Source: a virus
Reading direction: 5' to 3' (one strand)
DNA length: 38,643 nucleotides
IMG/VR virus record: IMGVR_UViG_3300035199_000475
Coordinates: 1-38,643 of that record
Position 1 is the stretch's first letter. Each line of letters starts with the position of its first letter. The notes below the pieces were generated by a model, which saw only the letters and a list, made by a program, of their open reading frames with translations, did no database searches and was not told the DNA's origin. Made by a program: the position numbers and the translations under genes. Positions 14,989 to 29,648 of this stretch are shown piece by piece.

Positions 14989-16197
14989 ATGTCAGATTTT
15001 ATTAGACATAAAACAGTTGCTGATCGAGCAGCAGGCGATCGACGCCGCCACCGGGCTAAAATTGAAGATGCGATAAAGCGTGGCGTTACAGATGTCGTTG
15101 CAGAAGAATCCATTATCGGTCAAGATGGAAAGAAAAAAATTAGAGTTCCTGTCCGTGGCATAAAAGAATATAGATTTGTATACGGTGATAATCAAAAGAA
15201 TGACAGGGTAGGTTCAGCTCCAAATAAGGATATACGCCGCGGCCAAAAGGTGGGAGAAGACCCAAGTCAAAAACAGGGAAAAAATCCATCCGCGTCAGGA
15301 GATAAACCGGGCGAAGAATATTACGAAGTCGAAATTACCTTGGAGGAATTAACAGATTATCTATTTTCAGATTTAGAATTACCTGATCTTGAAAAAAAGA
15401 AAATGATGCGCATCAGTGGAGAGAAATTTAAGCGTCACGGATATCGTTCACAGGGTATTAGACCTCGACTTGATAAAAAGAAGTCATTCAAACAATTGAT
15501 TAAACGTAGAAAAGCATCTAAATTTGCTAAGCAGGATGAGTCTCACGACCAAGAAGAGATCGGGTTTCACGACAATGATCTGCGTTATAAACATATTAAA
15601 GTAAAAGAGCGCGAGGCATCTAACGCTGTAATATTTTTTTTAATGGACATATCTGGATCGATGACAAAACTCAAGAAGTATTTGGCCAGAAGTTTTTATT
15701 TTCTGTTGTATCATTTTTTACGTAGCAAATATGAGCATGTCGAAATAGTGTTTGTAGCTCATGATACATCAGCATACGAAGTTAGTGAAGAACAGTTTTT
15801 TAAACGAGGAAATGCAGGTGGCACTCTGGTGTCGACAGGTCTTGAAAAGGTACAAGAACTAATTGCAGGTAGGTATCATCCGACAAACTGGAACGTATAT
15901 TGCTTTCAATGTTCAGATGGCGATAATTGGCCACAGGATATGCAAAAAACAAAAATATTAATCGAACAGCTAAAGACACAGTGCCAATTATTCGGTTATT
16001 GTGAGATTCGTCCCGCGTCAGATATACCGAACTGGGATCGAGGGGACGACCGACAGACGATTTTATGGGAGGCATATGATATGATGGCTGATCGTATGTT
16101 TAAATTAGTTAACATACATTCGAAATCAGATATTTGGCCTTCGTTTAAACGATTGTTTGGTGCGAGTCGAAAACCAAGACGGGTAATGGCAAAATGA
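14989..16197 (+). CDS. yeaH: YeaH/YhbH (DUF444) VWA-domain protein
   Basis: A 402-residue member of the DUF444/YeaH family, close to the usual ~425. The N-terminus (MSDFIRHKTVADRAAGDRRRHRAKIEDAIKRG) and the FLMDISGSM MIDAS (about residues 217-225) are characteristic; a FLxxDxSGSM VWA domain occupies the C-terminal half. In bacteria yeaH is co-transcribed with the Ser/Thr kinase gene yeaG (prkA) and is often next to spoVR; the set responds to starvation and stress. Here all three are contiguous. Its TGA overlaps the next ATG (16194-16197). Mechanism in a phage is unknown. Confidence 0.93.
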   Translation: MSDFIRHKTVADRAAGDRRRHRAKIEDAIKRGVTDVVAEESIIGQDGKKKIRVPVRGIKEYRFVYGDNQKNDRVGSAPNKDIRRGQKVGEDPSQKQGKNPSASGDKPGEEYYEVEITLEELTDYLFSDLELPDLEKKKMMRISGEKFKRHGYRSQGIRPRLDKKKSFKQLIKRRKASKFAKQDESHDQEEIGFHDNDLRYKHIKVKEREASNAVIFFLMDISGSMTKLKKYLARSFYFLLYHFLRSKYEHVEIVFVAHDTSAYEVSEEQFFKRGNAGGTLVSTGLEKVQELIAGRYHPTNWNVYCFQCSDGDNWPQDMQKTKILIEQLKTQCQLFGYCEIRPASDIPNWDRGDDRQTILWEAYDMMADRMFKLVNIHSKSDIWPSFKRLFGASRKPRRVMAK

Positions 16198-17498
16198 GTT
16201 GGAGCATCGCAGATCTAGAAAAGTGGGATAAGGAAGTTGTTGAATTATCTAGGGCCGCTAACCTTGACTGGTTTCCTATCAGATATGAAATATGCGATTA
16301 TTATACGATGATAGGTCATATGTCGTATCACGGAATGCCAACTCATTATGGTCACTGGTCATTCGGAAAAAGCTTTGAAAGAATTCACCAGTCGTATAAC
16401 GCAGGAGTGTCTGGATTACCATATGAATTAATCATCAATGCAGATCCTTCTATCGCTTATTTAATGCGGGAAAACCCTTTATATTTACAGGTTCTTATTA
16501 TGGCACATTGCGTTGGACATTCTGATTTTTTTAAGAACAACGCAACTTTTAAAAATACAGATCCTGACATTATCGTTAGTAGAATGAGAAATGCAAAGAA
16601 GAGAATCCAGGCGTATATTGAAGATCCTACGATAGGGATCGATAAAGTTGAAACAATCGTAACCGCCGCCCACGCTATTCAGTTTCAGGTCCCGCGGAAT
16701 AGAATGCAATCTTTAACCAGGGACGATCAAGTTACAAGATTGATCAGTCGCGCGGAAGAAGACGAAACAGATATAGATCCAGAAACAATAGAGAGAATTG
16801 TTATAGATCCAGAGTACGATTTATTATCATTTATTGCAGAAAATTCAAGAAATATGCCAGACTGGAAGAGGGATATATTAGAGATTGTCAGGATGGAATC
16901 AAATTATTTCATTCCACAGATACAAACAAAAATAATGAATGAAGGATGGGCTTCGTTTTGGCATTATCGAACAATGCATAATTTAAAATTGCCAGACAAA
17001 ATGCATCTTGCGTTTCTTAAAATGCATAACTTGGTTATCAGACCTCATATGGGGGGATTAAATCCATACCACTTAGGGTTTGAAATGTTTCGTAGAATTG
17101 AGGAACGCTTTGGATTAGACGAATGTTTCATTGCAAGGGAGTCCCTTAACGATTCTTCATTCTTATTGTCTTATTTAACCAGGAAGGATTGTGAAGATTT
17201 AGGATTGTTTAGTTTTTCTTTAAAGAGAAAAGTTGGCTATTTAATTAAAGAGATTTCTGATGAAGATGGTTGGAAAGTCATTCGATCATCGCTGGTAAAG
17301 AATGTAGGGACAAACGCGATGCCTGTGATATATGCTGTTGATGTTGATAAGGAATTTACTTTACGACTGCAACACGAGCATGATGGTCGTGATTTAGAAC
17401 TTGAACATGCAGATCAAGTCGTGGAACACATCAAAACGTTGTGGGGTGATGATGTTAAATTATCGACTGTTATTGAAGAAGAACCGTGGGAATTTTAA
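16194..17498 (+). CDS. spoVR: SpoVR family protein
   Basis: A 434-residue SpoVR/YcgB homologue, somewhat shorter than E. coli YcgB (~510). Diagnostic features are the N-terminal LDWFPIRYEICDYYTMIGHMSYHGMPTHYGHWSFGKSFER block, the GLPYELIINADPSIAYLMREN block, and the later INEGW-like segment (NEGWASFWHYRTMH). SpoVR is needed for spore-cortex formation in Bacillus, but most homologues are in non-sporulating bacteria, where the biochemical role is unresolved. Here it is translationally coupled to yeaH and followed by prkA after 35 bp, giving a complete stress-kinase module on a phage. Confidence 0.95.
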   Translation: MSWSIADLEKWDKEVVELSRAANLDWFPIRYEICDYYTMIGHMSYHGMPTHYGHWSFGKSFERIHQSYNAGVSGLPYELIINADPSIAYLMRENPLYLQVLIMAHCVGHSDFFKNNATFKNTDPDIIVSRMRNAKKRIQAYIEDPTIGIDKVETIVTAAHAIQFQVPRNRMQSLTRDDQVTRLISRAEEDETDIDPETIERIVIDPEYDLLSFIAENSRNMPDWKRDILEIVRMESNYFIPQIQTKIMNEGWASFWHYRTMHNLKLPDKMHLAFLKMHNLVIRPHMGGLNPYHLGFEMFRRIEERFGLDECFIARESLNDSSFLLSYLTRKDCEDLGLFSFSLKRKVGYLIKEISDEDGWKVIRSSLVKNVGTNAMPVIYAVDVDKEFTLRLQHEHDGRDLELEHADQVVEHIKTLWGDDVKLSTVIEEEPWEF

Positions 17499-17533
17499 TA
17501 AAACGAGTTTAAAAACTATGATAGGATTGATGT

Positions 17534-19477
17534 ATGCTAGAAGAAAAAAATAATGAAAATGAATTTCTTAATTTAATTCGTAAACAACGCCGAAAAAAGA
17601 AAAAGAAAAAATTCGTAGGTAATTTTATAGAGTATGTCGACCTGATCCAAAAAGAATCAGATGTTGTTAAGTTGGCCCACAAACGCTTATATGATACGGT
17701 CGTTGATCGTGGCGTAGTGACAATGGAATCATCCGACCCTAGAAAGTTAAAGATTTTTGATAATGAAAATATAAAGATATACGATTATTTTAAAAATGAA
17801 TTTTTCGGAATGGAACGCGTAATTGCAAAGGTGATGCGGTTTTTAAAGTCTGCGGCAATGAAAGGTGAAGAAAGTCGACAAGTGATTCTTTTGATGGGAC
17901 CTGTTGGTGCAGGTAAATCTGCGCTTGTGGAACACATTAAGAAGGCCATTGACGGATTATCCTATTATCACTTAAAAGGAGACCCTCAACGAGGAGAGCC
18001 CCTCCAATTATTACCACGATCACTAAGGGATGAGTTTGAGTCAAGACTTGGCGTTTCTATAGAGGGGGATATTAGTCCAGTTGCACGTCATTTATTGTTA
18101 AATGAATACGACGGAAAGTACGAAAACTTTGACATCGTAGAAACGACATTTTCCCAACGCGGTAGAAGGGGAATAGCATCGGTACCGCCCATGGACGCGA
18201 ACTCTCAAGACGTGTCGGTACTGATTGGATCAGAGGATATATCAAAGCTTGATAAATATCCAGAAGGAGATCCCAGAACACTAGCATTAAACGGAGCATT
18301 TAATGTGGGAAATAGGGGTATCGTAGAATTAGTTGAAGTGTTTAAAAATGAAATTGAATTTTTACATACGATCATTACCGCAACGCAAGAAAAAAGAATA
18401 CCCTCACCGGGTAGAAACGATATGGTCTATTTCGATGGCGTGATATTAGCCCACTGTAATGAATCGGAATGGAATAGATTCCAATCATCCCACACTAATG
18501 AAGCCATACTCGATAGGATTGTAAAAATTAACGTTCCGTATATATTGGAACTCGATCAAGAGATTAAGATTTATGAAAAGATTCTTGCGCGATCAGACTA
18601 TAATATGCACATTGCTCCCCATTCATTAAAAGTCGCCTCAATGTTTTCAGTGATGTCTAGATTAAAGGAGTCGCAAAAGTGTGATATTCTTACAAAGATG
18701 AAAATTTATAATGGCGAAGAAGTTATAGAGAAAGGTCGCGTTAGAAAAATTGACATAAGGGATCTTAGAGACGAAGCAAGAAATGAAGGTATGTTTGGTA
18801 TATCAACGAGGTTTATCATGAAGTCTATTGATAATGCTCTTGCTGAGTCGGAAAAAAGTATAATTACCCCCGTATCAATAATGGATTCGATTATCAAGCA
18901 GGTAAAAGAACAGATAGTAGATGCTGAATTTAGAGAGCAGTGTCTTGGATTGATTCAGCATGTGGTTCGAGAGGAGTATTTAAAAATCTTAGAAAATGAA
19001 ATTGCTAAGGCATTTATTGCTGCCTATGAGGAACAGGCACAATCTTTATTCGATACGTACTTGGACAATGCAGAGGCATTTACTACACATTCTAAATTAA
19101 AAGATAAGGTTACGAAAGAAGAAAAACAGCCTGATGAGAAATTTATGCGAATTATAGAGGAGCAGATCGGCGTAACTGGATCATCACGAGATGGATTTAG
19201 GACAGACGTAACCGCTTATATGTTTGCAAAATTACGCCGCGGCGAGAAGGTAGACTATAGAAGTTATGAGCCCCTTAAGGAAGCCATAGAAAGTTATCTT
19301 ATCAGCTCAGTAAAGGACATGGCTCGTATTGTTACAAAATCTAAGACAAGGGACGAAGACGGTCGGAAAAAATACAACGATATGGTTAAAACGTTGATAA
19401 ACGATTACGGCTATAACGAAGCTAGCGCAGAAGAAATTTTATCGTATGCGAGTAACAATTTATGGAGAGACAATTAG
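17534..19477 (+). CDS. prkA: PrkA/YeaG family AAA+ serine protein kinase
   Basis: A 647-residue protein, the same length as E. coli YeaG (644). The FFGMERVIAKVMRFLKSAAMKGEESRQVILLMGPVGAGKS region holds Walker A (GPVGAGKS, about residues 121-128). An AAA-like ATPase core is followed by the PrkA C-terminal domain. PrkA/YeaG phosphorylates Ser/Thr substrates and supports adaptation to nitrogen and carbon starvation in enterics and sporulation in Bacillus; some work describes protease activity instead. It completes the yeaH-spoVR-prkA set. A basic KKKKKK patch lies near the N-terminus. No promoter of the GTGAAA type precedes the module. Confidence 0.95.
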   Translation: MLEEKNNENEFLNLIRKQRRKKKKKKFVGNFIEYVDLIQKESDVVKLAHKRLYDTVVDRGVVTMESSDPRKLKIFDNENIKIYDYFKNEFFGMERVIAKVMRFLKSAAMKGEESRQVILLMGPVGAGKSALVEHIKKAIDGLSYYHLKGDPQRGEPLQLLPRSLRDEFESRLGVSIEGDISPVARHLLLNEYDGKYENFDIVETTFSQRGRRGIASVPPMDANSQDVSVLIGSEDISKLDKYPEGDPRTLALNGAFNVGNRGIVELVEVFKNEIEFLHTIITATQEKRIPSPGRNDMVYFDGVILAHCNESEWNRFQSSHTNEAILDRIVKINVPYILELDQEIKIYEKILARSDYNMHIAPHSLKVASMFSVMSRLKESQKCDILTKMKIYNGEEVIEKGRVRKIDIRDLRDEARNEGMFGISTRFIMKSIDNALAESEKSIITPVSIMDSIIKQVKEQIVDAEFREQCLGLIQHVVREEYLKILENEIAKAFIAAYEEQAQSLFDTYLDNAEAFTTHSKLKDKVTKEEKQPDEKFMRIIEEQIGVTGSSRDGFRTDVTAYMFAKLRRGEKVDYRSYEPLKEAIESYLISSVKDMARIVTKSKTRDEDGRKKYNDMVKTLINDYGYNEASAEEILSYASNNLWRDN

Positions 19478-22108: not shown

Positions 22109-22473
22109 GGGGGTGAAACGGTTTCGACGAAATAATGACATTGTACGGATGCAAACAGCCAACCGTAATACATGGCTTAAATAGTGTTACAATTTTTAAT
22201 TGCCAACGATAACGTTGAGTACGCTTACGCACTAGCTGCGTAATCGCTGGGTTGCCGATGACCTTGTAAACAAATATCGGATAGTTGGGTGGTCTCCAAT
22301 GATTGTGACAAGACTAAAATGGTTATCCTATTCGTAGTAGGTGTGATCCTGATTCTCGATAGGGATGGTTGGGAACATCGAGATTGTTTGTCGATTTATA
22401 AAAATCGACTAAGTTTGTGAATGACCCGTCTGTTGAGTTGTTTCGGACCCGGGTTCGACTCCCGGCACCTCCA
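22109..22473 (+). ncRNA. ssrA: tmRNA (transfer-messenger RNA)
   Basis: 365 nt, one-piece. The 5' end GGGGGTGAAACGGTTTCGACG and 3' TTCGACTCCCGGCACCTCCA are the canonical tmRNA ends. The acceptor GGGGGTG pairs with CACCTCC (one G-U), and the T arm is CCGGG-TTCGACT-CCCGG. The tag frame is at 22202-22243 with resume codon GCC, encoding ANDNVEYAYALAA and TAA; the C-terminal ALAA is the classic ClpXP degron. tmRNA rescues stalled ribosomes together with SmpB, which is not in this window, so host SmpB or a gene elsewhere would be needed. CCA is not fully encoded. Confidence 0.96.
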
Positions 22474-22496
22474 CTTTATCTAACTGGAGCAATAAA

Positions 22497-25404: not shown

Positions 25405-25410
25405 ACATTG

Positions 25411-25863
25411 ATGATCGATATTGTAACAAACGTAGCATCTCTACAAACACCATACGGGCGTGTTGATTCTTTAGATGAGGCAAAAATAATCGCGGATAGA
25501 TTATTCGCAACTTTATCTAGGTATCCCGCTGGTGTAGGTTTAGCTGCAAATCAAATTGGCATAGTTAAAGCAGTGTGTGTTGTAAACGTTAGTAGACCAT
25601 TGTGGTTTGCAAATCCTACGTTTACATATTATAATACACCCGAAAAAACCGTATTTCAAGAGGGCTGTATATCATTTCCAGACGTTACTGTTCTTACAGA
25701 GAGATATAAAAATATTATTGTTCAAGCAGATAATTTCTTACAGTGTAATGAAATGATTTTTGATGAAAAAAATATACTTGAATGTGTGTGCGTACAGCAC
25801 GAAATATGCCATCTAATGGGTGAAACAATGTTCGATTATCGCTCCAAGCCGGAATTAATATAG
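25411..25863 (+). CDS. def: peptide deformylase
   Basis: A 150-residue enzyme removing the N-formyl group from nascent proteins. All three motifs are present: GVGLAANQIG, EGCISFP (metal-ligand Cys) and QHEICHLMG (HExxH). ATG 25411 is preferred to a TTG three bases before it. Phage deformylases are known in cyanophages and other marine phages, where they are thought to speed maturation of rapidly made proteins. The Asp of the common HEIDH is Cys here. Confidence 0.93.
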   Translation: MIDIVTNVASLQTPYGRVDSLDEAKIIADRLFATLSRYPAGVGLAANQIGIVKAVCVVNVSRPLWFANPTFTYYNTPEKTVFQEGCISFPDVTVLTERYKNIIVQADNFLQCNEMIFDEKNILECVCVQHEICHLMGETMFDYRSKPELI

Positions 25864-25918
25864 AATAATAACTTTAAGCATGCCAAATATCACAGCACCA
25901 TTACAAGAGGGTATCATA

Positions 25919-26140
25919 ATGAAAAAGAAAGGGATACATGAACGAATTATAATGTATGAGAATGGAGAACTAAAACTCACTGAGATCGTAATACTTTTTC
26001 AAGAATTAATAGATTCTGGATTTGCATGGAAACTACAGGGTCACTATGGTCATATCGCAGGGGAATTAATAGAGGCTGGATTGTGTAATATGTATCCGGT
26101 AAGCGAGGACGATATCCCAATCCCGGTTGAGCTACATTAA
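25919..26140 (+). CDS. small conserved phage protein (DUF7417-like)
   Basis: A 73-residue product. ATG 25919, with GAGGGT upstream, is preferred to ATG 25880. The block YENGELKLTEIVILFQELIDSGFAWKLQGHYGHIAGELIEAG matches a small family I recall as widespread in phages. Function unknown, probably early. Confidence 0.65.
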   Translation: MKKKGIHERIIMYENGELKLTEIVILFQELIDSGFAWKLQGHYGHIAGELIEAGLCNMYPVSEDDIPIPVELH

Positions 26141-26181
26141 ACTTAATTTGATAAACGAAAAGGAGAAATAAATTAAATAAC

Positions 26182-26589
26182 ATGGGTTTAAGAGAAGTTT
26201 ATGAATATACTGCTACTTATGAGCAGCTTAGAAATGAAACGCGTCAAGTATACGCAGACTGCAATACACTTGAGACAGGTTACATAATGCAATGGGATTC
26301 TAACGTTGCTATGGATGTTAATGGTTGGCAATCGATTATGGAGTCAGCATTAGAGTTCGATGCAGGTGAACATAATAATTTCTGTACCACCGAAGTCGCT
26401 CAGTTTTTTTATGACGCTGAAACTATTTATCACGATGAATTATCTATAATTCCCTCTAGAAGGCAAGGCGTTTCATGTTTCATTCATGCGAAACATGAAA
26501 CGCTGGATTACATCAGACGATTTGCAAGAAAAATAGGCGCAAAAGCTGTTCATGCCAATGGTGACGATTTACAGTTGCTATGGGATTAA
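26182..26589 (+). CDS. hypothetical protein
   Basis: A 135-residue mixed alpha/beta product from ATG 26182. AAAAGGAG lies about 18 nt upstream, which is long, so the start may be a few codons earlier at a non-ATG codon. The C-terminal half (VSCFIHAKHETLDYIRRFARKIGAKAVHANGDDLQLLWD) has a small ferredoxin-like pattern. Not recognised. The stop TAATG overlaps the next start. Confidence 0.55.
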   Translation: MGLREVYEYTATYEQLRNETRQVYADCNTLETGYIMQWDSNVAMDVNGWQSIMESALEFDAGEHNNFCTTEVAQFFYDAETIYHDELSIIPSRRQGVSCFIHAKHETLDYIRRFARKIGAKAVHANGDDLQLLWD

Positions 26590-26801
26590 TGATGAATAAT
26601 GAAGTGAAAGAAATATTAGTCGATTTAATTGACTACTATAATACAATCGGTACAGAAGATGATCCTGGATTTAAATCGTTCACGGATATCGTAAATAGGT
26701 CATCTAAGATGTTAGAGCGCAACGCCACCCCACGGATTCGTGACGTTCTTCCACATAAAGATTTTACTGAAAAAATTATAAAGCAAGAAAACGAATGGTA
26801 G
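26589..26801 (+). CDS. hypothetical small protein
   Basis: A 70-residue product starting at ATG 26589 in the TAATG overlap (ATG 26580 and 26592 are alternatives). Mostly helical (NNEVKEILVDLIDYYNTIGTEDDPGFKSFTDIVNRSSKML). The layout recalls the protein at 36490 (both have a 'DDPGF/DNPGL...' turn followed by a R-S-S/V-L helix), so they may be paralogues. Function unknown. Confidence 0.55.
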   Translation: MMNNEVKEILVDLIDYYNTIGTEDDPGFKSFTDIVNRSSKMLERNATPRIRDVLPHKDFTEKIIKQENEW

Positions 26802-26867
26802 TCTAGATTATGATCTAGCTATTTACGTACAAAAACATTCCTGGTTCAGCTATTTAAATCAGGGATT

Positions 26868-27440
26868 ATGATAAAGTCAAGAAAATTTAAAAAAATAGCT
26901 TTGATGTCTGAGGTGCTATCATTACAAGAAGTTAAATTTAAAGAATTAGATGGCAAGTACCTTTCAGAGTTTAGGCGAGATTTTAAGCTTGAGTTGGAAT
27001 TTTTACATTCTATTCCTCTCAACATAGAGTCAAAACATGAACACCAGTTTAAGCCAGACATATCTAGGGAATCTCTTAAAAAAATTCATCGTGCCCTTGT
27101 AAAAATAGCACACCCAGATTTAAATCCCGATCACGATAACGATGATAAATTTGTAAAAATTCAGCAGGCATATGAACAGGGAAATGCGACTGTCATGGTT
27201 GAATTAGCTGTCCAGAACAAATTGGATATAGATCTTATTGAAGAAGACTTTCTAGAACTAGAGAGACAAATAAAAATCCGTGAACAGATATTGGAAGATA
27301 AAAAATCGACGGTTAGATGGATCTGGGGCAGGTCGAATAAAAGCGTTAAAATACGCAACAAGATAAGGCAAACACTAGGTATTAACTTAAAGCAGTTTCA
27401 AGTGTGGACTGAGAATCACCACGGGGGTATCAGTATATAA
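26868..27440 (+). CDS. J-domain protein
   Basis: A 190-residue protein with a central J-domain-like segment (KKIHRALVKIAHPDLNPDHDNDDKFVKIQQAYEQG), including the HPD tripeptide needed to stimulate DnaK/Hsp70 ATPase. Flanking regions are charged helices; the C-terminus (TVRWIWGRSNKSVKIRNKIRQTLG) is basic. It may direct host DnaK to phage proteins or replication complexes. No glycine-rich or zinc-finger domain, so it is a type III J-protein. Confidence 0.8.
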   Translation: MIKSRKFKKIALMSEVLSLQEVKFKELDGKYLSEFRRDFKLELEFLHSIPLNIESKHEHQFKPDISRESLKKIHRALVKIAHPDLNPDHDNDDKFVKIQQAYEQGNATVMVELAVQNKLDIDLIEEDFLELERQIKIREQILEDKKSTVRWIWGRSNKSVKIRNKIRQTLGINLKQFQVWTENHHGGISI

Positions 27441-27504
27441 AACAAACCGCAATTTAGGATTAAACATTTATTGTACCATATATTATAAATTGAATGTTCA
27501 TTGA

Positions 27505-28159
27505 TAATTTAAATGACCCTGGTTCTCGGGTCTAGAAATCCAGATTGAGTTACCGGCTTTTGGACATTGACGATAGTTGATGATAGAGAAAACCTTGATT
27601 GGGAAGGGGGTGTTCTTAAACCCCTGTCGCCTGACTAAGAAAGGGAATGGGTAAAGGAAGGTGGTACTTCTGAAAACCATTCAGCAGTTTAAGGTGTGAG
27701 CTTCTATACCACAGGAAGAGAGCTACCAAAAATACCTACGGATTTGTGGATTCATCGTGGGAACGGGATAAGGACATGCTCCAATGCTATGGAAAAATAG
27801 TCTTGGGAAGGAGGGTTAAAAACCTCTAGAATCTAACTACTGTTTTCAGAAGTCTCTCTGGTAAGAATGGCAACAGTCTTACCGTCCCGAAAGGGGTTAC
27901 ATGGATAATTTTCCAAGAATTAGAAATGTAACGCTCAACGACGAGGAAAGGTGTACAGTTTACTCAACGAAGAGCAGAATGCTAATAGTAGTACCGCGTG
28001 CTGTTCCGTGATCTTAACAGGTCGAGAACAGGGAGAAAGCTCGTGAACGGTGTTACTAGCCGGTGTGCGTACCTCTAACCCGGGTAATGGGAACAGGCTC
28101 AAAAGGCTTGGGGATCATGAGTATTGGAAATATAGACGTACTGGTATTTCTTTTTTTTT
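27505..28159 (+). ncRNA. large structured non-coding RNA (~650 nt), GOLLD/ROOL-like candidate
   Basis: No credible protein frame exists over about 700 nt. The region is more GC-rich than its surroundings and full of stems: 27515-27519 with 27528-27532 (GACCC/GGGTC), a perfect 12-bp long-range helix 27666-27677 with 27842-27853, GGTAAGA/TCTTACC near 27860-27883, GTTACAT/ATGTAAC near 27896-27932, a CCC-GAAA-GGG hairpin near 27886, and a possible end-to-end helix 27552-27557 with 28059-28064. It ends at a hairpin with a T9 run (28127-28159). Giant phage RNAs such as GOLLD and ROOL have this size and tRNA-rich context, but I cannot confirm the class. The 5' end is approximate. Confidence 0.75.
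28127..28159 (+). terminator. Rho-independent terminator of the large ncRNA
   Basis: GAAATA (28127-28132) pairs with TATTTC (28145-28150) and is followed directly by nine T. It lies 27 nt before the next coding start and marks the 3' end of the structured RNA. Confidence 0.7.
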
Positions 28160-28185
28160 ATTTACACACTTACACAGGAGAAAAA

Positions 28186-28392
28186 ATGAGCGAATCGAAT
28201 AGAAGCGGATACGAACTCCGCACTGATTTATTAGGAATGGCGATAGGAATTGTAACAGACAAGAACAATCGTCAGTTTGATAATGAACACCTTAAACCAG
28301 AGGGACAACGAAGCCCCGTTCCACCATATACAACAGAAGATGTAATCGCGGAAGCTGAAAAACTTTATCAGTTTGTTCAAAAGAAGAATTAG
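28186..28392 (+). CDS. small conserved T4-like phage protein
   Basis: A 68-residue product. ATG 28186 follows AGGAGAAAAA; the longer frame from 28063 lies in the ncRNA and is rejected. The blocks GYELRTDLLGMAIGIV and YTTEDVIAEAEKLYQFVQ are a pattern I recognise from many T4-like marine phages. No biochemical role is known to me. Confidence 0.7.
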   Translation: MSESNRSGYELRTDLLGMAIGIVTDKNNRQFDNEHLKPEGQRSPVPPYTTEDVIAEAEKLYQFVQKKN

Positions 28393-28408
28393 TTCCCCAC
28401 ATAATCAT

Positions 28409-28426
28409 ATGCTAGTTGTTTAGCAT
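28409..28426 (+). other. short hairpin upstream of UTR element 1
   Basis: ATGCTA and TAGCAT form a perfect 6-bp stem with loop GTTGTT, immediately 5' of the first repeated UTR hairpin. It could be a weak terminator or part of the same RNA structure. Confidence 0.4.
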
Positions 28427-28458
28427 CCCGCAGGAAGGCACGGGGTCACAGGTGTCTT
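28427..28458 (+). repeat. repeated 5'-UTR hairpin element, copy 1
   Basis: CCCGCAGG is followed by the stem AAGGCAC/GTGTCTT (28435-28441 with 28452-28458, one G-U) closing the 10-nt loop GGGGTCACAG. It lies 25 nt before the ATG at 28484. Same layout as copies 2 and 3. Confidence 0.8.
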
Positions 28459-28483
28459 ATATCAATTTATAAAGGAGGTTATT

Positions 28484-28819
28484 ATGAAGGAAATTTTAAA
28501 TAAGTATGGAGTCTATATCGTCGTTGCGCTTTTGGTTGGTGCAGCCGCATTTTGGTGGGTAAGCAATAAAAGCGACACCGAAAGCAAAAATGTACCAGCA
28601 AAGGCATCGCAAGTAGAGTCGCCACAACCAACTGCCCAACCGGCAGTCGGAACAGTGACTATTACGGACGATAAAGTAAAACCAGTTAACCCAACGGTAT
28701 CTGGCAATTCTGATGATCGTAGTAATGAAGCACAGGATGAAAGTTCTAGCACTGTTTCTCAACCGCAAGAAGCAGATGAAAATACTGCAAAAAATAAAGA
28801 AAATACCTTTGAACAATAA
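28484..28819 (+). CDS. membrane-anchored acidic disordered protein
   Basis: A 111-residue protein: a signal-anchor helix (YGVYIVVALLVGAAAFWWV, about residues 9-27) and then a long disordered tail of Ser, Thr, Pro, Glu, Gln and Asn. AAAGGAGG precedes the ATG. Expected to sit in the inner membrane with its tail in the periplasm. Not recognised. Its UTR carries the repeated hairpin. Confidence 0.65.
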   Translation: MKEILNKYGVYIVVALLVGAAAFWWVSNKSDTESKNVPAKASQVESPQPTAQPAVGTVTITDDKVKPVNPTVSGNSDDRSNEAQDESSSTVSQPQEADENTAKNKENTFEQ

Positions 28820-28823
28820 TATG

Positions 28824-28852
28824 CAACCTTGTTTTAATATTGAACAAGGTTG
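28824..28852 (+). terminator. 10-bp hairpin, probable terminator
   Basis: CAACCTTGTT (28824-28833) and AACAAGGTTG (28843-28852) form a perfect stem with a 9-nt loop, four nucleotides after the stop at 28819, followed by TTAGTTTC. Likely a transcript end or processing site. Confidence 0.6.
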
Positions 28853-28862
28853 TTAGTTTCTA

Positions 28863-28895
28863 TTCCGCAGGAGGGCATGGGATAACAGATGCCCT
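28863..28895 (+). repeat. repeated 5'-UTR hairpin element, copy 2
   Basis: TTCCGCAGG is followed by the perfect stem AGGGCAT/ATGCCCT (28872-28878 with 28889-28895) closing GGGATAACAG. The ATG at 28922 is 26 nt downstream. Stem bases differ from the other copies but pairing is kept. Confidence 0.85.
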
Positions 28896-28921
28896 ATTTT
28901 TTAATATTTAAAGGAGATTTT

Positions 28922-29131
28922 ATGAACTATATTAAGACCAAAAACACGAAGCGTTTCTCATTTCAAGTTAATCGAAACACCACCGCCAAGAAGGCGGGAT
29001 CCAATACGGTAACGATTAGTACTCGCGGTACTGATGGTTGTTACAGTGCCGGACAATCGCAGTTGACGTTAACTGTCCGTGAAGCATCCGCTTTGAAGAG
29101 CTTTCTAGATAGTAACCTAGTGTCCGAATAA
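28922..29131 (+). CDS. small conserved T4-like phage protein
   Basis: A 69-residue product with AAAGGAG upstream. The block RFSFQVNRNTTAKKAGSNTVTIST... SQLTLTVREASALKSFLDSNL matches a small beta-rich family I know from T4-like cyanophages and other marine phages. Role unknown. Probably abundant, given the structured UTR. Confidence 0.7.
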   Translation: MNYIKTKNTKRFSFQVNRNTTAKKAGSNTVTISTRGTDGCYSAGQSQLTLTVREASALKSFLDSNLVSE

Positions 29132-29137
29132 TACAAG

Positions 29138-29170
29138 TTCCGCAGGGAGGCACGGGGTTACAGGTGCCTC
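29138..29170 (+). repeat. repeated 5'-UTR hairpin element, copy 3
   Basis: TTCCGCAGG is followed by the perfect stem GAGGCAC/GTGCCTC (29147-29153 with 29164-29170) closing GGGGTTACAG. The ATG at 29217 is 46 nt downstream. Confidence 0.85.
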
Positions 29171-29216
29171 ACATTCACATGATTTATATCAATAATAAAA
29201 AAAGAGGAAACTTACG

Positions 29217-29648
29217 ATGGGTAAAGTAAAGAATGGACAAACGGTGAGTGTTCATTATGTGGGAACGCTGAATGATGGTACGGAGTTCGATAATTCGAAT
29301 ACACGAGGAGAACCAATGTCATTTCAGGTGGGCTCTGGACAATTAATTTCGGGATTCGACACAGCGGTACAAGGAATGTCGATTGGAGAATCAAAAACTA
29401 TTAAAGTATCTCCGGACGACGCGTATGGTACCGTAGATGATAATGCAATTCAAACGTATCCAAGTTCTATGTTTCCAGACAACTTTCAGTTCTCAGTGGG
29501 TGCTCACGTTCAAGGATCTGACGATTCCGGTCAACCAGTAACCGCAAGAATTTCAACGTTTAATGATGAAAATGTAACCCTGGATTTTAATCATCCGCTA
29601 GCGGGAAAAACATTAAACTTTGAAATTAAACTTATCGATATTGAATAA
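29217..29648 (+). CDS. FKBP-type peptidyl-prolyl isomerase (SlyD-like)
   Basis: A 143-residue FKBP. VSVHYVGTLNDGTEFDNS, GSGQLISGFDTAVQGMSIGESKTIKVSPDDAYG and an inserted IF-type flap region follow the SlyD/FkpB layout. It catalyses cis-trans isomerisation of prolyl bonds and can act as a chaperone. Similar genes occur in T4-like marine phages. No signal peptide, so cytoplasmic. It lacks the His-rich metal tail of E. coli SlyD. Confidence 0.93.
   Translation: MGKVKNGQTVSVHYVGTLNDGTEFDNSNTRGEPMSFQVGSGQLISGFDTAVQGMSIGESKTIKVSPDDAYGTVDDNAIQTYPSSMFPDNFQFSVGAHVQGSDDSGQPVTARISTFNDENVTLDFNHPLAGKTLNFEIKLIDIE

Follow-up and report, generated by a model that had tools for sequence, protein, structure and literature searches.

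What is encoded between the DnaJ-domain gene (26868-27440) and the 68-codon gene (28186-28392) of a virus record from IMG/VR was the question raised by this locus. The window, i.e. the whole stretch of DNA analysed, comprises 38,643 bases, and the region studied extends from 27505 to 28159. The initial annotation had read this region as a giant structured non-coding RNA of the ornate large RNA type. Our comparison bears this out, as homologues with strong compensatory covariation were found and the Rfam models fail on the region. That it belongs to a conserved family of non-coding structured RNAs can be regarded as virtually certain. Its members share a conserved fold with four tertiary helices, do not encode a protein, have no conserved neighbour gene, occur as a single copy per contig and carry a boxA-like leader. 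In the window, the conserved RNA spans approximately 27515-28152 and the leader element 27496-27506.

A blastn search of the INPHARED phages with the region and two homologues gave no match, and the upstream neighbour gene 26868-27440 as bait returned nothing. The gene 28186-28392 as bait retrieved 64 relatives in IMG/VR contigs, and three of these 64 loci contained a full-length homologue of the RNA region with approximately 70% identity. Patterns built from conserved blocks of the first homologues were then used to find more members, which raised the total to 26 hits representing about 21 distinct sequences including the window. The RNA family hence has about 20 other distinct members in IMG/VR phage contigs of up to 317 kb. 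Pairwise identity of the full-length members ranges from 55 to 95% (mean 70%), and all 20 contigs contain one RNA site each, with one divergent copy being matched as two pieces. A covariance model of the central hairpins (R1) did not reveal additional members, neither in the other loci that were searched nor in 17 other large phage contigs. The RNA is also absent from the available sequence of other large phage contigs with the neighbour gene 28186-28392, which indicates a patchy presence, bearing in mind that these contigs may be fragments. The neighbour gene itself (MSESNRSGYELR...) is strongly conserved in the 64 viral contigs (up to 87% identity) and matched nothing in INPHARED or Pfam. 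Of the 15 contigs tested, 7 contain a gp23 capsid gene of the T4 type, and Terminase_6C was detected in none of the contigs. In one member, L068 (2652-3307; IMGVR_UViG_3300009378_000005, 45501-46163), the RNA follows the gp23 major capsid gene at a distance of approximately 0.7 kb and has the same direction; this placement was not seen in the other contigs checked.

The fold was derived from an alignment of 20 sequences, for which RNAalifold predicted 144 pairs, 93 of them with at least one change on both sides. Covariation was assessed in the manner of R-scape, using APC-corrected G-test statistics and a null model that was simulated along a FastTree phylogeny and preserved the change count of every column. 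Four pairs, each of them a standard pair, were significant when all column pairs were considered, as were 27 of the 144 when the predicted set was considered, versus 0-1 with partners slid. Two predicted helices (columns 59-61/378-380 and 66-70/326-330) were dropped because they are near-invariant and clash with the 5' hairpin. The final structure consists of the remaining RNAalifold pairs, the 5' hairpin, a 3' pseudoknot and further tertiary helices from a systematic scan. It is pseudoknotted and comprises 167 pairs in 33 helices, with 96.9% of cells paired over the 20 sequences and 107 pairs changed on both sides, compared to 38-45% and 25-34 pairs in the slid-partner control. As the structure was derived from the same sequences, this control is biased in its favour; the effect size and the tree-based null nevertheless make a chance result implausible. 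When only the four tertiary helices are considered, 99.1% of cells are paired and 12 of the 22 pairs show double changes. The elements are the following (all on the plus strand):

27515-28152, +: structured non-coding RNA body of about 640 bases (167 pairs, 96.9% of cells paired)
27515-27532, +: 5' hairpin GACCC/GGGUC, 91% paired, with compensatory changes in L084 (GACCG/CGGUC) and L076 (GGCCC/GGGCC)
27614-27640, +: loop pseudoknot 27614-27618 with 27636-27640, 98% paired, 3 of 5 pairs double-changed
27661-27712, +: kissing loops 27661-27665 with 27708-27712, joining two neighbouring apical loops, 98% paired, 3 of 5 pairs double-changed
27747-27835, +: loop pseudoknot 27747-27752 with 27830-27835, 100% paired, 3 of 6 pairs double-changed
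27836-27992, +: long-range helix 27836-27842 with 27986-27992, closing the central domain, 100% paired, 4 of 7 pairs double-changed
27859-27895, +: two adjacent hairpins with GNRA-type tetraloops (GCAA, GAAA), 98-100% paired, the first stem with five covarying pairs and the second invariant
28039-28122, +: 3' domain helix 28039-28046 with 28115-28122, 96.5% paired, 4 of 8 pairs double-changed
28065-28141, +: pseudoknot 28065-28070 with 28136-28141, reaching into the loop of the 3' hairpin, 100% paired, 3 of 6 pairs double-changed
28128-28161, +: 3' hairpin followed by T9, probable terminator, kept in full-length members with diverging sequence

Many stems, as noticed in the initial annotation, are real and backed by covariation. 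Its most prominent example, a 12-bp helix (27666-27677/27842-27853), is present in the window sequence and not conserved: 64% of its cells are paired over the 20 sequences, compared to 62% in letter shuffles, and several pairs are broken in most members. Instead, two covarying stems (27645-27650/27677-27682 and 27656-27660/27667-27671) take up its 5' strand, and the stems 27836-27842/27986-27992 and 27845-27848/27980-27983 overlap with its 3' strand. The minimum free energy of the window region lies below that of dinucleotide shuffles (z -2.4), which is weak evidence on its own.

At the 3' end, the T9 run does follow a hairpin at about 28128-28161, as had been proposed. The stem is A/U-rich, a U-run lies directly 3' of the hairpin in six members, and a separate, strong terminator follows shortly after it in L009, L068, L104 and L085.

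Two features had not been part of the initial annotation, a leader motif and a palindromic loop, of which the latter bears on the assembly of the RNA:

27952-27957, +: apical loop with the palindrome UGUACA, the only one conserved in this RNA and a candidate for symmetric kissing between molecules

The lineage that has diverged furthest (L084/L086/L105) carries another palindrome, UAGCUA, in the corresponding hairpin. Such a palindrome-for-palindrome exchange is the sequence criterion for symmetric intermolecular kissing loops in OLE and GOLLD (PMC12286853), and it supports intermolecular pairing because adjacent bases cannot pair within one chain. The exchange is one event, for which we estimate a chance of about 1 in 16 that a palindrome arises again when both self-pairs change. 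The loop and the kissing-type pairings are compatible with oligomerisation, and judging from the sequences we consider the chances of a homo-oligomeric RNA to be evenly balanced. The RNA could instead be a monomer or an RNA-protein particle, similar to the raiA motif, a large RNA that stays a monomer (PMC12286853). The palindromic loop would then contact a protein or the ribosome, and all kissing pairs would be intramolecular. The extensive intramolecular tertiary pairing agrees with this explanation and the invariant loops could be binding sites, but no conserved partner gene lies nearby and the changed palindrome is still a palindrome. We regard a monomer or RNA-protein particle as possible, though rather unlikely.

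The second additional feature precedes the conserved body:

27496-27506, +: boxA-like antitermination element, GTTCATTGATA in the window; 19 of 20 members have the core TCTTTNAMA

The element reads GTTCTTTGAAA or GTTCTTTAACA in the relatives and lies just upstream of the conserved body, with an unconserved linker in between; in the window, the element is degenerate and has decayed to GTTCATTGATA. Column conservation of the core is 0.88, compared to 0.52 upstream and 0.53 in the linker. The published gammaproteobacterial boxA consensus GYTCTTTAANA (PMC5725501) is present without deviation in six members, and the boxA of Escherichia coli rrnB, TGCTCTTTAACAATTTA, lies about 141 bases before the 16S rRNA. 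The family hence possesses what characterises an rrn-type boxA leader, i.e. GYTCTTTAANA or a close variant 5' of an untranslated RNA. As in rrn operons, this motif is situated in the leader 5' of a long structured RNA that is not translated, whereas the phage RNA body is not rRNA. Based on this resemblance, the motif is likely to be an rrn-type boxA. Near-consensus sigma-70 promoters were found upstream in L084, L103, L104, L105 and L075, and shuffle tests were convincing only in L068, L074, L084, L103 and L104 and nearly so in L075 and L105, while a consensus scan of the window detected no promoter at the right place. The upstream promoters in some members suggest that boxA would fall within the transcript. 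BoxA binds NusB-S10 (PMC5725501); it also opposes Rho on long RNAs that are not translated, and it has been linked to the folding of rRNA (PMC4807359). It may be speculated that an abundant boxA RNA acts as a decoy, which titrates NusB-S10 and lowers host rRNA synthesis, with the body mainly providing stability. The conservation of boxA between unconserved flanks would suit such a decoy, but the constraint on the body, with its pseudoknots and invariant loops, is far above what stability needs, and the boxA of the window copy is degenerate, which renders this explanation improbable.

The family was further compared with known RNAs. Among the Rfam 15 models, none matched the window region at E-values up to 10, while the same library found the tmRNA and four tRNAs of the window; six relatives were without match at E-values up to 5. 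This includes the covariance models of introns, RNase P, OLE, HEARO and rRNA, none of which matches the region, and thereby, with GOLLD and ROOL, all models with which the initial annotation had proposed a comparison. The ROOL model (RF03087, threshold 99.1 bits) gave no match at E-values up to 10 in 21 contigs, and the same search found ROOL at 358 bits in another genome. With the GOLLD model (RF02032, threshold 150 bits), which was run without a positive control, no match was obtained at the RNA in the 21 contigs, and the best score was 8.6 bits in one contig, away from the RNA. Our literature search revealed no description of the family, although its coverage was incomplete and other papers may exist. 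The suggestion of a new class is consistent with these results, and we are highly confident that the RNA lies outside the described Rfam families.

Nevertheless, the family has the properties of an ornate large phage RNA: it exceeds 0.5 kb, is non-coding, has a covarying multi-helix pseudoknotted fold and is free-standing in phage genomes. ROOL, which forms an octameric cage with D4 symmetry, is likewise phage-borne, about 0.6 kb long, pseudoknotted, non-coding, often located near tRNAs and patchy in its distribution. It differs in sequence and model match, and no boxA was found near the single ROOL locus examined. GOLLD forms a homo-oligomeric cage (14-mer) with symmetric kissing loops. It is likewise a phage-borne giant RNA and has in common with the present RNA a symmetric palindromic loop of the GOLLD L21a type (PMC12286853) and, for many members, the tRNA-rich surroundings, whereas its sequence differs, its model does not match above chance and no common domain was found. 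OLE (RF01071) and the raiA motif are also large ornate RNAs, OLE with a palindrome-exchange kissing loop (PMC12286853), but here no Rfam match was obtained, the RNA resides in phage contigs and there is no conserved partner gene. Size and phage setting like those of GOLLD and ROOL might indicate that the RNA belongs to a known family (GOLLD, ROOL, OLE, intron, RNase P or rRNA) from which it has diverged very far; given the absence of Rfam matches in the window and the six relatives and the failure of the GOLLD and ROOL models on 21 contigs, this is very unlikely.

No gene family occurs in more than 5 of the 21 neighbourhoods of the RNA. The lack of a widely common neighbour gene argues against a cis-regulatory leader as well as a protein partner encoded by an adjacent gene. 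A leader acting in cis on the downstream gene, as a riboswitch-like element or an attenuator, could be suspected since in the window about 25 bases separate the T run from the start of the next gene, and a gene follows soon after the RNA in several other loci. The downstream genes vary by phage, however, and terminators end the RNA in many members, which makes a leader very unlikely as well. The neighbourhood had been described as tRNA-rich, which holds for many members and not for all: a tRNA lies directly upstream in several, nearby in more, and within the locus sequence at hand in about half. The window contains a tmRNA at 22109-22474 (tag ANDNVEYAYALAA), and L074 a phage tmRNA (346-766) with the unusual tag peptide ANNNYYFEESRLAA, 2.3 kb upstream of the RNA. 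Genes associated with protein fate surround the RNA in the window (25408-29648), namely those for a peptide deformylase, the DnaJ-domain protein and an FKBP-type isomerase.

A protein gene that is hidden or frameshifted has a negligible probability, for nothing was found in its favour, all frames of the window copy contain stops (longest open stretch 59 codons), none remains open across the homologues, indel lengths in the 20-sequence alignment are not multiples of three and compensatory changes are pervasive; the initial annotation's statement that the region has no plausible gene is thus confirmed.

Taken as a whole, we consider it an even question whether the region encodes a free-standing large structured phage RNA of the GOLLD/ROOL kind, yet of a separate family, that is Nus-antiterminated and homo-oligomeric. 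Transcription would start at a promoter just upstream and, in the manner of rRNA operons, boxA in the nascent leader would recruit the NusB-S10 antitermination complex of the host. RNA polymerase could thereby complete the long untranslated RNA without Rho termination, perhaps also aiding its proper folding. The RNA would end at or just after the 3' hairpin, the loop of which would be locked by the pseudoknot, and copies might associate via the palindromic loop, and possibly the kissing loop too, into a homo-oligomer. By analogy only, the role of this oligomer in infection may resemble the one proposed for GOLLD and ROOL particles, with the translation machinery or its surroundings as a possible site of action. 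We count in favour of this reading the covariation, pseudoknots, non-coding status and lack of a common neighbour gene, the conservation of boxA between unconserved flanks with its exact consensus in six members, the palindrome exchange, and the tRNAs near many members, as with GOLLD and ROOL. Against it count the degenerate boxA of the window, the palindrome exchange being a single event, kissing pairs that may all be intramolecular, promoters that convince in only some members, and about half of the loci having no tRNA within the flanks at hand. More tentatively, and with somewhat less than even chances, the family may represent a giant phage RNA machine of a new class that uses the transcription and folding route of host rRNA via boxA and self-assembles by a symmetric kissing loop; if true, an RNA particle would be produced along the ribosomal RNA route during infection.

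To our knowledge, only a few giant ornate RNAs of phages are known. A further family that is unrelated in sequence and has a covariation-backed pseudoknotted structure offers an independent comparison for them. The boxA leader points to a rule, open to testing, by which phages may produce structured RNAs that are long and untranslated, and oligomerisation is predicted from the palindrome exchange ahead of any cryo-EM.

Elsewhere in the window, three adjacent genes were observed at 14989-19477. The first has a match to a sporulation protein, and the third is related to PrkA/YeaG serine kinase genes of the Thermus phage phiYS40 and of phages of about 600 kb.
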